DNA from: Odontesthes bonariensis
Taxonomy: Eukaryota > Chordata > Actinopteri > Atheriniformes > Atherinopsidae
NCBI RefSeq assembly: GCF_027942865.1
Contig: NC_134521.1
Span: 19,966,449 to 20,030,448 of the forward strand
Length of the DNA: 64,000 nucleotides
Reading direction: 5' to 3'
Shown here: piece by piece, positions 53,401 to 60,425 of the stretch
Position numbering within the stretch: position 1 is the stretch's first letter
How the letters are laid out: the number at the start of each line of letters is the position of its first letter
The notes under the pieces: model-generated
What the model was told of the DNA's origin: nothing
The model's input: the letters and a program-made list of their open reading frames with translations, nothing else
The model's database searches: none
Translations under genes and position numbers: made by a program

Positions 53401-55081
53401 AAATATTAAGTGGCTATTTGACTGTGCAGTTATTTTATCCCCAACATAATGCTGTTTTCACACACATAAACTATGTCTCATGTATCATGTTCTGTTAAAT
53501 ACTTATGCCTATTTAAACTAACACAGACTTCTACTGAGCCAACAGAAAGAAGGCAGATGCCCGTAAAACGGGTGGTGCCCAGCACCGCCACCTCTAACGG
53601 GAGGCCAGTGGCTGAGGGAATCCTTGGAGGGAGTCCACCCCCAAGACACAAGTGCCTTTATAAAATATAATAGGCCTATATCTATATCTTCTTTAAGCCT
53701 ATTTATACAAATATGTATTTGTCTTTTTTTTCTTTTGTCCCAACAAAATTCTGATGGTGCCGCTCAAAAAGATAATTGTCTGGAAATGCTAAAACATCTA
53801 TGCGCGGTCTGATAACCATCTCCCGATGAATATTTAATTCTATGCGCAGTAATGCTGCACCTTCATCCACGGGATCGTTGTCAAAAGGACATGCCATGTT
53901 TGTGGAAAAAGTCGCTCCTCTTTCTCGGGGTTGAGTTACCTCCCTTTGTGAAACAGAAAACTCAGAGTTTCCCTCATTTCAGGGTTAATCAACTCAGAGT
54001 TTTCACTGAACCTGCTTTGTGAAACGGACCTCTAAAGACACTCAGCTGAACTCGAAGGTCCAAGTTCATCACCGTGTGAACGCTTCATCCACCGCCTTTA
54101 AACAACCACAGGTGCTGCAGAACAAGACCCAGGAGAACTCCACATAAAAAATGCTTAATGTCTTAAAGAAGTTTTCCTACAATCTCACCTTAAATCCTGA
54201 TGTTTTCAACACACACATCAGGGTACAAAAGAGCCTATCAGATGCAAGGTAATTTTTTTTTACTTTTCGACCAGACCCTACCTGTCAAATTGCAGTCACT
54301 GAGTATTTCCAGACTGTCGCTCTGCTCTGACAAAATCCTGATTTTATCATTTAAAAAAATTAAACTAGCTTCAGATTTGTCCCTAAACTGTCACTGAATC
54401 AGGGAAGATATACTTTTAAATATGATGCTCCATCTGCTTCGGAATCACGGGCAAAAATAAATAAATAAATAAATAAATCACACTTATCTTTCAAAGACAG
54501 CTTCCCGAAACAAATGAACTGACTCAGGGTTAATATGTCTCCCTTTTTACGCATGCATTGCTGGATGTGGCAGCACCCCATTAAAGTATACCACACCGCT
54601 TGGCTTCGCCTTGATGTAAGTTACAGTTTTTAGGAGGAAGTATGCAGTGCTGCCTTTAGTTGCAATTTAGCTTACTGCTGTGGTGTGAAAGTAGTCTGAG
54701 CTGCAATGTAGCTCTCAATCATTTCCCAAACACAAAGTCAATCGTTGATTCAAAGATTTTATAAAATGTCATCAGCTCACTGGCTAATAAAATAACTCTA
54801 AAATAGCACTATGACGGATGCTAAATTGGCTCAGTTTGAGGTTTTGTTGTCACGTTTGCTGAGTCTCGGTTAGCATCAGCTGTCAGCTAATTAGCATAAC
54901 ATTAGCCCTAAAATGCTAACTGTTGCAGGTAAAGGATATCTCCAAGAACGACGTGTCCCCGGCCGGAGTCACTTGTCGTTATTCCTTTGGGAAGGACAAA
55001 GTTTTTCCCACTATCCGCAGGATCCTTCACCGTATCTTTGTCGAAGAAGACAAATTTCCTCCACTGTAAGAACGCTGCCAT
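41475..55081 (-). CDS. vps11: VPS11, core subunit of HOPS and CORVET, 16 exons, 926 aa
   Basis: Reverse-strand exons: 54940-55081, 52169-52317, 50257-50392, 49995-50158, 49659-49906, 47556-47757, 47302-47453, 47027-47213, 46759-46902, 45738-45935, 45479-45640, 45212-45345, 43994-44196, 42107-42278, 41787-42009, 41475-41639. They total 927 codons with the stop; human VPS11 has 941 residues. VPS11 is a shared core subunit of the endosome/lysosome tethering complexes. The N-terminal beta-propeller begins MAAFLQWRKFVFFDK and contains FIVAGDECVYLYQPDERGPC. The alpha-solenoid/clathrin-repeat middle includes LFKKNLFVMAINLAKSQHLD and TIGKLEPSYVIRKFLDAQRI. A coiled-coil segment follows, then a RING-H2 finger at about 807-845 (C807, C810, C823, H825, H828, C831, C842, C845). 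Intron 1 has AT-AC ends; all the others are GT-AG. A CLEAR motif precedes the ATG. Several introns carry Tc1-derived insertions. Confidence 0.97.
42538..43345 (-). mobile_element. Tc1-derived non-autonomous element (shared-deletion subfamily)
   Basis: It is a reverse-oriented copy in the intron between vps11 exons at 43994 and 42278. The ends carry the family terminal repeat: left 'TCTGGAGCCACCCCTCATTT', and right, on the reverse strand, 'TCTTGAACCACCCC'. The internal junction at about 42735-42745 fuses the WRDES-equivalent DNA to PPQSPDLNITEAVW exactly as in the other copies. It also lacks part of the transposase middle. Confidence 0.9.
44725..44900 (-). mobile_element. tRNA-derived SINE-like repeat
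   Basis: Read on the reverse strand, GGTTTGAGTCC resembles a pol III B box (GGTTCGANTCC). The forward strand shows the common fish repeat text 'TTTATGCCTTTAATGGACAG' and 'AAAGACATGCAGCAAAGGG'. An A/T-rich tail follows on the T-run side at about 44728. It lies in the vps11 intron 44197-45211. Confidence 0.55.
48455..49500 (+). mobile_element. Tc1-derived non-autonomous element (shared-deletion subfamily), longest copy
   Basis: It runs from 'CCCTCATTTCTTTATATTTT' to 'GGTTCAGACTGTGTTGGAG' plus a short tail, in the vps11 intron 47758-49658. It encodes pieces of a Tc1 transposase: CVLNTFEETGQVEDKRRR, KLSTADEQYLKVTSLRKRKE and DLTQDLN. After the fusion junction at about 49265-49272 it reads PPQSPDLNITEAVWDH, DRERNKRQPTSKEELWDVLQ and EDYIKK. 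The DNA between the first and third catalytic motifs is absent. Confidence 0.92.
52590..54230 (+). mobile_element. Tc1-type relic split by a Harbinger insertion
   Basis: The left part (about 52590-52922) contains 'AAGGCTATAGGACCATCTCC' and 'CCAACCTCTCAGGACGTGGC'. The right part (about 54031-54230) continues with 'CTGAACTCGAAGGTCCAAG' and 'CAAGACCCAGGAGAACTCC'. Together they follow the order of a fish Tc1 transposase gene, with frameshifts throughout. Both parts lie inside the vps11 U12 intron. Confidence 0.6.
52923..54030. mobile_element. PIF/Harbinger element, internally deleted, two convergent ORF remnants
   Basis: The ends are inverted repeats: left 'TGTTTCACAAAGCAGGTTCA' and right, on the reverse strand, 'CGTTTCACAAAGCAGGTTCA'. 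The + strand carries a Myb/SANT-like remnant (ATFFTNLELEILMRSYGEF, then GEKRSWLQFKMKYKNIVQT, then RPVAEGI). The - strand at 53703-53897 reads the N-terminus of a HARBI1-like nuclease (MACPFDNDPVDEGAALLRIE, RPRIDVLAFPDNYLFER) and then stops, so the DDE domain is deleted. A Myb-like protein plus a nuclease in opposite orientation is the standard Harbinger layout. Confidence 0.85.
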
Positions 55082-57857: not shown

Positions 57858-58138
57858 GTGAAAGGTGGGGTCACCTGTCCATTGCTTGTTCTGAATTGTA
57901 TTACAACCTATTTAGAGTTATGAAGTGTGCAAGGCTCAACTAAAGATATCAACGATTAAGAATGAAATAACTGGAAACTACACCATGGGGTGTTTTTGGA
58001 TAGCGAGTGGTGTAGTCAAATTCGGACCCCTTTGGCTTTCCATACCTACAGAATCTGCTGTCTGACCCAAACTGCCTTAACTTGGAAAGCAATCCAAGCA
58101 GAGCACCGGCCTCATTGATAATCATTTGAGCGGTTCTG

Positions 58139-58260
58139 ATTGGATCAGTCGGAGACACGATCCGCTGCGATTGGTGTTCAGGGTTCGAGAACGTTGGGAG
58201 GTGGGATCAGACAGCGTAACGTGCGCCATCTTTTGCCGTCCCGTTGTCCGGCAGACTGGG
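58139..58260 (+). promoter_or_regulatory. CpG-rich CCAAT-box promoter-like region upstream of the transposase-derived ORF
   Basis: Two inverted CCAAT boxes (ATTGG at 58139-58143 and 58170-58174) are followed by a YY1-like GCGCCATCTTTTG at about 58224 and several CpGs, then the ATG at 58293. There is no TATA box. This resembles a housekeeping-type promoter. No transcript evidence is available. Confidence 0.35.
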
Positions 58261-58292
58261 GGCGAACAAAAAAACCCAAAAAAAAACAAAAA

Positions 58293-59363
58293 ATGGGGAA
58301 AAACAAGGATTTAAGTGACTTTGAAAAGGGGCAAATAGTGATGGCCAGACGACTCGGTCACAGCATCTCCAGGACGGCAGGGCTCGTGGGATGCTCGCGG
58401 TTTGCGGTGGTGAGCACGTACCAAAAGTGGTCCAAGGAGGGACAGCCGGTGAACCGGCGGCAGGGTCACGGGCGGCCGCGGCTCATTGACACCCGAGGGG
58501 AGCGCAGGCTGGCCCGCGTGGTGCAGTCGCACAGGAAAGCAACCGTGGCTCAGATCGCTGAGAAGCTCAACGCCGGCTGTGACAGGAAGGTGTCGGAGCA
58601 CACGGTGCACCGCAGCCTGCTGAGAATGGGGCTGCGCAGTCACAGAGCCGCCACAGAGCCCCCGCTGACCCCCGTCCTCCGCCGGCAGCGCGTGCAGTGG
58701 GCGCGGGAGCGTCACAGCTGGACCGTGGAGCAGTGGAAGAAGGTGGCCTGGTCCGGTGAATCCCGCTTTTGTTTACTCAACGTGGACGGTCGGGCGTGCG
58801 TGCGTCGTTTGCCGGCGGAAGACGTGGCAGCAGGATGCGCTGCGGAAAGAAAGCAGGACGGCGGGGACAGTGTGACACTCTGCGCGATGTTCTGCTGGGA
58901 GACTTTGGGTCCTTGCGTCCATGTGGATGTGACCCCGGCACGTGCATCCTACCTAAACATTGTTGCAGACCACGTGCACCCCTTTATGGCAACTCTTTTC
59001 CCTGATTGTAGTGGCCTCTTTCAGCAGGACAATGTGCCCTGGCACACTTCAAAAGTACTCCAGGAATGGTTTGAGGAACATGATGATGAGCTCAAGGTCC
59101 TGCCTTGCCCTCCTAACTCTGCAGATCTCAACCCGGTTCATCATCTTTGGAGTGTTCTGGAGAAACAAGTGGGATCCGTAGAGACCCCACCTCGAAACTT
59201 AGAGGACTTGAAGGATTTGCTCTTAACATCTTGGTGCCTGATTCCCCAAGACACCTTCAGGGGTTTGGTGGAGTCCATGCCTTTAAGGGTCAAAGCTGTG
59301 TTGGCTGAACAGGAGGGGGTGGACACAGTGTTAGATAGGACAAGTGGACTTAATGTGGGCTAA
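58293..59363 (+). CDS. Tc1-type transposase-derived protein, intact ORF with degenerate catalytic triad, 356 aa
   Basis: This is an uninterrupted 356-codon frame, single exon, of normal length for a Tc1 transposase. The ATG at 58293 gives MGKNKDLSDFEKGQIVMARR; the frame is open for 51 more codons upstream, to 58140. Residues about 5-115 are paired helix-turn-helix DNA-binding domains with a GRPR linker (59-64). The catalytic domain keeps family motifs but not the chemistry. The WSDES motif is WSGES (Gly155 for Asp), QQDN keeps Asp246, and NPIEHLW is NPVHHLW (His283 for Glu). With two of three metal-binding residues gone, it should not cut DNA. Every other Tc1 copy here is full of stops, so the open frame is notable: either a domesticated DNA-binding protein or a recently inactivated element. 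The first 650 bp of the frame are strongly CpG-rich and the last 400 bp are not. No clear terminal inverted repeats were found. Confidence 0.8.
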   Translation: MGKNKDLSDFEKGQIVMARRLGHSISRTAGLVGCSRFAVVSTYQKWSKEGQPVNRRQGHGRPRLIDTRGERRLARVVQSHRKATVAQIAEKLNAGCDRKVSEHTVHRSLLRMGLRSHRAATEPPLTPVLRRQRVQWARERHSWTVEQWKKVAWSGESRFCLLNVDGRACVRRLPAEDVAAGCAAERKQDGGDSVTLCAMFCWETLGPCVHVDVTPARASYLNIVADHVHPFMATLFPDCSGLFQQDNVPWHTSKVLQEWFEEHDDELKVLPCPPNSADLNPVHHLWSVLEKQVGSVETPPRNLEDLKDLLLTSWCLIPQDTFRGLVESMPLRVKAVLAEQEGVDTVLDRTSGLNVG

Positions 59364-59394
59364 TTTTACATTTCTGTATGTGTGCAAAAGTCAT

Positions 59395-60425
59395 GAGCCA
59401 CCGCTCATTTCTTAATATGCTGCCAGTTAAATAAGGTGCAGCGATTTATTCAGCAATGTGCAAACACAATGCTTTCTGTCATTTCTTTAAGCAGTCTTCA
59501 GGAATAGTTCTCCAGGCTTCTTGAAGGACATCCCAAAGCTCTTCTTTGGATGTCGGCTGCCTTTTGTTCCGTTCTCTGCCAACATGATCCCACACTGCTT
59601 CAGTAATGTTGAGCTCCGGGCTCTGGGGAGGATTCATCCCTCCATCAGACCTGTTGCCACTGATTTTCAGCCCACTTCTTGTGTCCTTTGGCACAGCTCA
59701 GCCTTTTCTCCCTGTTTCCCTTCCTTAAGAATGGCTTCTTGACAGCCACCCTTCCATGGAGCCCATTTCTGATGAGGCTTGGGCCAACAGCAGATGGATC
59801 AGCTGAAGGTCCAGATGCATCTCTCAGGTCCTGTGTCAGGTCTTTGCTGGGTTTTTTCCTCTTTCTTAAGGACGTCACTTTCAGATACTGTTCATCTGCT
59901 GTAGATAGTTTTTTAGGCCTGACACTTCTTCTTTTGTCCTCCACTTGTCCAGTTTTAAGGACACACTGCACACCATGCTGAGATATGCCAAGTTTGGGGC
60001 AAAAATACTATTTTCTGTCTGTCAAACTGTGTTATCTTTAGTGTTTTTCATAGATGCAACTAAAGAAATGGGAACAAATGATGTGTCTTTGTGACAGGCT
60101 GCTGGTAACAAAGTGTCTAATGATACAATTTAAAACTGGTTCTTTGCTAAATTGTCTGTTATGTGAAGACACAACACTGGTTCATCCCTTGAGTTAGGAG
60201 CCTTTTTTCATGCTTGAATGATTCTTATGTCAGCATTTAGAGGCTTAACAAACAAAAAACCAAATTCCTCTGAAAAAGGTTCAGGTACAAGAACTGGCCT
60301 GAAATTAAGTGAAAAAGCAACCAATGTCCAGAGAAAGACTTTCAGAAAGCCTGGAGAACGATTGCTCAAGACCACTTTAAAAGATTAAAGTAAAGTCTGG
60401 CTGCTTGGAAGCAAAATATCAAGAG
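59395..60425 (-). mobile_element. Tc1-derived non-autonomous element (shared-deletion subfamily)
   Basis: A reverse-oriented near-full copy, starting at the terminal-repeat text 'AAAGTCATGAGCCACCGCTC' and ending near 'GGAAGCAAAATATCAAGAG'. The reverse strand has the longest surviving N-terminal half of the family transposase: CVLKTGQVEDKRRSVRPKKL, SKDLTQDLRDASGPSADPSA and RNGLHGRVAVKKPFLRKGNR. The same fusion to PPQSPELNITEAVW occurs at about 59633-59640. It follows directly after the intact transposase-derived ORF. Confidence 0.92.

Follow-up and report, generated by a model that had tools for sequence, protein, structure and literature searches.

The window analysed here is a stretch of 64,000 nucleotides on contig C21 of a 945-Mb assembly, whose genes and Tc1 content are those expected of a teleost. 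It contains an open reading frame for a protein derived from a Tc1-type transposase, 356 codons plus stop on the plus strand (58293..59363, P0001; hereafter the ORF). The frame is open from 58140, the first ATG lies at 58293 and the stop codon ends at 59363. The protein matches the Pfam families HTH_Tnp_Tc3_2 (E 3.2e-12) and DDE_3 (E 2.5e-10), and the GRPR motif is retained at residues 60-63 together with an N-terminal double helix-turn-helix. An earlier note on this DNA had described an intact 356-codon frame in which both helix-turn-helix regions and the GRPR linker are kept, and it holds on both counts. No fusion partner was seen within the frame.

The ORF starts about 3.2 kb upstream of vps11, the two lying head to head on opposite strands. 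The first coding exon of vps11 (54914..55081, minus strand) carries a PEP5_VPS11_N match (E 2.7e-8) that falls under the Pfam cut-off; a later exon scores above the curated cut-off. At 31 kb of the window, an HSP70-type exon presumably belongs to hyou1. Beyond the window, an HMG-box exon (L010:5919-6281, minus strand) and a guanylate-kinase exon (in L012) read like bbx and like a dlg gene, respectively. Directly behind the ORF, starting about 19 bp past its stop, lies a relic of another Tc1 element (59382..60400, minus strand, ends approximate), similar copies of which are found downstream of the window.

The 5′ half of the ORF is embedded in a CpG-island-like stretch (58151..58900) with 69 CpG, a GC content of 0.62 and an observed/expected CpG ratio of 0.99 over 750 bp, against 0.54 for the whole window. 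This is the highest CpG count among the window's 750-bp stretches (step 50). The matched parts of two relics of the same family, L023 and L029, have ratios of 0.0-0.41. Two inverted CCAAT motifs (ATTGG) are found on the minus strand at 58139..58143 and 58170..58174. The ORF had been said to sit directly behind a CpG-rich stretch with two CCAAT boxes: the boxes are there, in inverted form, but the stretch overlaps the 5′ half of the ORF. In addition, GCCATCTT at 58225..58232, which read in reverse is similar to a YY1 site, is a candidate promoter element only. A CpG-rich 5′ half with CCAAT motifs and a YY1-like word fits an unmethylated promoter, and transcription would probably start from this stretch. 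No AATAAA occurs within 1.2 kb of the ORF stop, and the first ATTAAA is at 60384. An A-rich stretch (58264-58292) lies right before the ATG, and the flank before 58282 has no match among the DNA matches listed.

Alignment to Sleeping Beauty SB100X (5cr4) places Gly155, Asp246 and His283 of the ORF at the catalytic positions, the same residues that had been read there before, and hence the DDE triad of Tc1/mariner transposases is incomplete. Codon 155 (58755..58757) is GGT, for Gly, where the family mostly has Asp; codon 246 (59028..59030) is GAC, so that Asp is kept at the second catalytic position; and codon 283 (59139..59141) is CAT, for His, where the family has Glu. Among the relics of the ORF's own family, readable cases have Asp155 in 6 of 10, Asp246 in 15 of 22 and Glu283 in 9 of 20 (one further codon at column 283 is incomplete and stands outside the 20). 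One relic, L049, likewise has Gly at 155. The Glu codons of the nine relics are GAG or GAA, two changes away from the CAT of the ORF, in line with the claim that Glu to His needs at least two base changes. In 10 open transposases of other Tc1 families from the same genome, Asp155 and Asp246 are present in all 10 and Glu283 in 9, the remaining one having Asp instead. Because of the residues in these open transposases and in the relics, we infer that the family ancestor probably had D, D and E, and that two of the three positions have since changed in the ORF.

The ORF also differs from its relatives at its ends. At least 18 of the 21 bases of the terminal repeat of relic L019 are kept at one or both ends by 10 of 26 relics, whereas the two ends of the ORF match it at 12 and 11 of 21 bases, with a shuffled mean of about 11. 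The whole window has no match to the L019 repeat within 3 mismatches, and an inverted-repeat scan around the ORF found no terminal repeats. The ORF has thus lost its repeats, as domesticated genes do, and without them it is not mobile. On the other hand, the repeat end of the family is still common in the genome: an 18-base version has 76 exact copies against 0 for the reversed control, and with up to 2 mismatches 611 sites are found against 24, that is, about 590 above background.

The family to which the ORF belongs can be approached through such features. DD36E/Incomer elements, described in 132 ray-finned fish, have transposases of 314-382 residues (Table 1 of PMC6875036), 36 residues between the second and third catalytic positions and terminal inverted repeats of 22-32 bp (PMC6875036). 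The ORF has 36 residues between positions 246 and 283 and a length of 356 residues, within the Incomer range; terminal inverted repeats of 22-32 bp are missing from the ORF and present in relics such as L019. By spacing, length and short relic repeats, which are features and not sequence identity, its parent fits a place at or near DD36E/Incomer.

We searched the 945-Mb genome for further copies. With the protein, the ORF itself is found at 100% and the next full-length match at 38% identity (best 114 of 6777 first-look candidates). With the DNA of 58000-59480, at least 47 matches were obtained including the ORF, the others being 65-78% identical (best 40 of 99 candidates), and no DNA match listed extends before 58282 or past 59334 into the flanks. 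Match counts of this search are lower bounds. It skips very common words, so that the repeat following the ORF would escape it. Among the listed protein and DNA matches there is no close copy of the ORF, its nearest relatives there being partial or decayed. A search with the DNA-binding half (best 150 of 1745 candidates) gave one other whole-length, stop-free place of high identity, the relic L019 at 82%, followed in rank by a match of 57% identity with 6 stops. Nor did IMG/VR, a collection not devoted to fish, yield a close relative when scanned. Near-identical copies with D, D, E, named in the earlier note as evidence against domestication, are thus absent from the matches listed, among which the ORF is an intact frame in single copy, as a domesticated gene would be. 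The same note had described the other Tc1 copies as all broken. This stands for the window, where no other Tc1-like frame of more than 170 codons was seen, and for the relatives of the ORF, but not for other Tc1 families of the genome, which have many open copies. Indeed, many of their frames are open and full-length, with D, D, E in 9 of 10 examined, and the genome may therefore hold active Tc1 elements.

The comparisons below rest on 26 relics, which are part of the family loci in the genome. Duplicates were dropped before counting (L044, L045 and L046, the same places as L029, L023 and L019). Loci of about 51-57% DNA identity, among them L017 with 64% over a short stretch as well, were assigned to other Tc1 families, as were L006 (66% over 138 bases) and loci without BLAST match. 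Several family relics (L023, L053, L054, L055 and L068) lie about 40-80 kb apart in G000:C26:23087721-23349798, and three relics of this cluster match the ORF at the same coordinates with 67.1-67.6% identity, which suggests tandem duplication of a segment carrying one relic. From this cluster L053, L054 and L068 were dropped and L055 and L023 kept, so that the 26 relics may count one insertion twice.

How long a frame of this size survives without selection was estimated from the decay of the relics. Strictly scored, their 10,355 aligned bases contain 109 frameshifting gaps, or 10.5 per kb; the short relic L063 has none. Assuming that 10.5 gaps per kb correspond to 0.2 substitutions per site, a neutral 1068-bp frame remains stop-free with a frequency of 0.0015 (3 of 2000 simulations) and frameshift-free with one of about 1e-5. 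At 0.05 neutral substitutions per site these values are 0.16 and 0.06, and about 1% of copies would keep an open frame; the frame alone is hence compatible with a late loss of function. Chance survival is therefore implausible at the divergence of the relics and possible after a late death.

Selection was examined through the length of each copy's own branch at every codon position, obtained from three-way distances with the ORF and each of the 26 relics as focal sequence in turn. The ORF branch measures 0.133, 0.056 and 0.311 at positions 1, 2 and 3, a position 2/3 ratio of 0.18 (0.12-0.25 in 60 bootstraps over codons). The same method gives ratios of 0.30-1.25 for the 26 relics, the lowest being that of L019 and the next 0.45. 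Pooled, the relics have similar lengths at the three positions (0.215/0.183/0.246); they evolve as expected of dead copies. Maximum likelihood, with a fixed tree and each codon position fitted separately to the ORF and 15 relics (L019 left out), yielded 0.125/0.058/0.455 for the ORF against relic means of 0.22/0.188/0.227. The ORF branch is shorter at position 2 and longer at position 3 than that of every one of the 15 relics; at position 1 two relics are lower. The codon-position skew could in principle be an artefact of pairwise alignment to the ORF, which is countered by taking each of the 26 relics as focal.

Against the per-codon majority of the relics, the dN/dS of the ORF is 0.17 (0.11-0.27 in 300 bootstraps; 247 codons). 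The same procedure applied to 25 relics gives a median of 0.70 and a minimum of 0.27, the minimum coming from 48 codons only. Codons without a supported majority were excluded, leaving 247 of 356 for dN/dS and 243 of 356 for residue-change counts. L019 was included in the three-way branch lengths and in the main dN/dS set, and left out of the majority in the residue-change counts and in the regional recheck for the ORF and the other relics. Our results show that the ORF branch is under strong purifying selection, far from the dN/dS near 1 that had been named as counter-evidence. Purifying selection on a host copy, as in domesticated genes, is thus seen in one genome and against relics. The dS of the ORF to the relics is large, 0.585 overall and about 1.0 in the DNA-binding half, with relic medians of 0.17-0.30 by region. 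Part of the branch may therefore predate the insertion, the element itself then being under selection, and the relic median of 0.70, being below 1, is likewise a hint of selection from the mobile phase. Furthermore, GC3 in the DNA-binding half is 0.78 for the ORF against 0.39-0.57 in 10 relics, so that base composition may inflate dS there. The dN of this half is nonetheless the lowest of all in absolute terms (0.048, against 0.099-0.287 in 15 relics), and its low dN/dS is hence not due to high dS alone.

Constraint is unevenly distributed along the protein. It is strongest in codons 1-115 (58293..58637, plus strand), which comprise the two helix-turn-helix regions and GRPR; it is relaxed in codons 116-200 (58638..58892, plus strand), around the first catalytic position; and it is again present in codons 201-356 (58893..59360, plus strand), the rest of the catalytic domain. 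The respective dN/dS values are 0.04, 0.50 and 0.22, or 0.05, 0.46 and 0.22 with L019 out of the majority. In the DNA-binding half of the ORF 8 of 75 residues have changed; for 116-200 the count is 20 of 60, and for 201-356 it is 21 of 108. The DNA-binding half differs from 116-200 (Fisher p 0.002), and its difference from 201-356 is not significant (p 0.15). That selection may keep the DNA-binding part, as had been proposed, agrees with the lowest dN/dS being found in codons 1-115. The constraint on residues 201-356 (0.22) had not been foreseen in that proposal, and it suggests a remaining role for a portion of the former catalytic domain in folding or partner contacts.

Between other Tc1 families the pattern is the opposite. 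The 10 open transposases of other Tc1 families have mean identities of 0.28 in the DNA-binding half, 0.43 in the first-Asp region and 0.37 in the rest, and in all but one of 36 pairs the lowest identity is that of the DNA-binding half. Selection on a transposase during the active life of its element would be expected to leave this pattern. These 36 pairs, left after 9 of 45 pairs of nearly identical proteins were dropped, are not independent, since the 10 transposases form about five groups. The identity of the ORF itself to other Tc1 families is flat (0.29/0.31/0.30). A low dN/dS produced by mobile life only was considered and rejected, as the regional pattern in open transposases is the reverse of that in the ORF; this comparison sets deep between-family divergence beside one short ORF branch, and the dS of the ORF is large. 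With that limit, the inverted constraint is the best argument here that the host and not the element is being served, and it is not proof.

The relic L019 (C26:5495209-5498568, on another chromosome) deserves separate attention. It lies in the apparent 3′ UTR of an eif1-type gene (SUI1, E 9.9e-11) and has an open frame of 173 codons. Its DNA-binding half (L019:1513-1860, minus strand) is open over the first 116 codons, with 82% protein identity to the ORF, and the DNA alignment of the two has two single-base gaps that offset each other. The dN/dS of this half is 0.08 against the relic majority (0.03-0.17, 75 codons) and 0.11 against the ORF, with a dS of 1.06, and it is also CpG-rich (0.99). 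Codons 117-356 taken together are indistinguishable from shuffled sequence (0.636; 3 shuffles, 0.625-0.629); the BLAST match to the ORF reaches codon 147, and a short remnant, residues 293-309, can be recognised. The terminal repeats, at 20 of 21 and 21 of 21, are almost perfect beside this decayed second half, for which internal rearrangement is a possible cause. A single insertion that retains the binding half and has lost the nuclease half is hard to explain by selection from mobile life. We propose L019 as a second candidate domesticated gene, a case that the earlier note had not anticipated.

Taken as sequence evidence, these data make it probable that the ORF is a domesticated gene whose product binds DNA without cutting activity. 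The earlier note had suggested such a host protein, kept by selection, and the dN/dS of 0.17 and the losses of catalytic residues support it within one genome. In this scenario a Tc1-type element of or near DD36E/Incomer would have inserted between the present vps11 and the bbx-like gene. The remaining members of the family would have decayed, while the window copy would have lost its terminal repeats and two of three catalytic residues and its protein would have been retained for the host by natural selection. The product would be a stable, non-cutting, sequence-specific DNA binder acting through its two helix-turn-helix regions. Its likeliest targets would be the terminal repeats that its own family has left behind, with about 590 recognisable ends; there it might act by repression or recruitment, in the manner of SETMAR at Hsmar1 ends. 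DNA binding, the repeat ends as targets and the cellular role are what we infer from this analysis.

The main competing explanation is a late arrival from a divergent, unseen subfamily: selection would stem from mobile life elsewhere, and a recent insertion would have lost catalysis and not yet been broken. The ORF lies far from the known relics at synonymous sites (dS 0.585), which agrees with this, as does the report that some fish species have only one Incomer copy above 90% identity (PMC6875036). A recent insertion should, however, carry terminal repeats, and the ORF has none. Moreover, Glu to His took two changes and Asp to Gly a third, yet there are zero stops or frameshifts; the regional pattern of constraint in the ORF is opposite to the one seen among other families' open transposases; and no other match exceeds 78% DNA identity among the matches listed. 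We consequently regard a late arrival as unlikely. Chance preservation of the frame in an old dead copy is very improbable. There are many Tc1 relics, so that some will keep long frames, and several other Tc1 families do have open copies; but multiplying the stop-free and frameshift-free frequencies for 0.2 substitutions per site, an assumed calibration, gives about 1e-8, and the ORF falls outside the relic range both in position 2/position 3 ratio (26 relics) and in dN/dS (25 relics). Conservation at the DNA level only, for instance of a CpG-island promoter or enhancer serving vps11 with the frame being incidental, is even harder to credit. It would account for the CpG-rich 5′ half lying on the strand opposite to vps11, 3.2 kb upstream of it, but regulatory constraint does not make codon position 3 faster than positions 1 and 2, and codons 201-356 are protected too, although they lie outside the CpG stretch.

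Domestication might also have brought a different benefit. The ORF could act as a transposition brake, the dead enzyme competing for repeat ends or joining a working one in inactive complexes. Constraint on the DNA-binding half and on residues 201-356, with a relaxed first catalytic region, is what binding to ends and assembly would require; about 590 repeat ends remain, and in L019, a second relic, the DNA-binding half has been retained. However, the family seems to have died out long ago in this genome, so that perhaps nothing is left to brake, and we hold this variant to be a minority possibility. Similarly tentative is the idea that one lineage tamed two copies of a single extinct family, inserted at unlinked places, and that these together form a small regulatory pair reading several hundred repeat ends. 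The window gene, with its DNA-binding half and dead catalytic domain, would then perhaps be the full-length regulator, and L019, with the DNA-binding half alone, perhaps its competitor. If true, such a pair would represent a PAX-like DNA-binding module caught early.

The domesticated gene that we favour has several counterparts. The vertebrate genes CENPB, JRK, TIGD and POGZ, common to many vertebrates, derive from pogo. Like the ORF they are single-copy host genes from the same broad transposase group, and unlike it they have pogo and not Tc1-type parent elements. The PAX paired domain is proposed to derive from a Tc1-like transposase, and PAX proteins are ancient and fused to other domains. 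The paired domain is a DNA-binding region of similar architecture without a nuclease, a state that L019 resembles; reduced to its DNA-binding half, L019 may show a stage like that proposed for the origin of the paired domain. To our knowledge, domesticated genes from true Tc1-type elements have been reported less often than pogo, mariner and piggyBac cases, and among the papers listed in our literature searches none describes a host gene derived from DD36E/Incomer, which is no proof of absence.

DD36E/Incomer elements, as described, share with the ORF a transposase of about 350 residues with two helix-turn-helix regions, GRPR and the 36-residue spacing, and with its relics the short terminal repeats; they are common in ray-finned fish (PMC6875036). 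Unlike them, the ORF lacks two of the catalytic residues and the repeats at both ends; it therefore cannot be a mobile Incomer. Human SETMAR, derived from Hsmar1, is likewise a Tc1/mariner-superfamily transposase kept by the host, and it binds the remaining Hsmar1 ends in human cells; it is fused to a histone methyltransferase and has a mariner parent, whereas the ORF is unfused and has a Tc1-type parent (PMC8327481). F-box genes of Caenorhabditis have captured a Tc1/mariner HTH domain and, like the ORF, keep the transposase helix-turn-helix region within a host protein, but there it is fused to the F-box gene while the ORF protein stands alone (PMC12062965). Domesticated transposases are hence a known kind, to which the ORF would add a case from a DD36E/Incomer-like family for which there was none among the papers listed. 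The decayed copies in the same genome act as controls, which makes the claim testable with existing genomes. If orthologues exist, the loss of cutting activity and the retention of DNA binding by a transposase could be followed across a series of fish.
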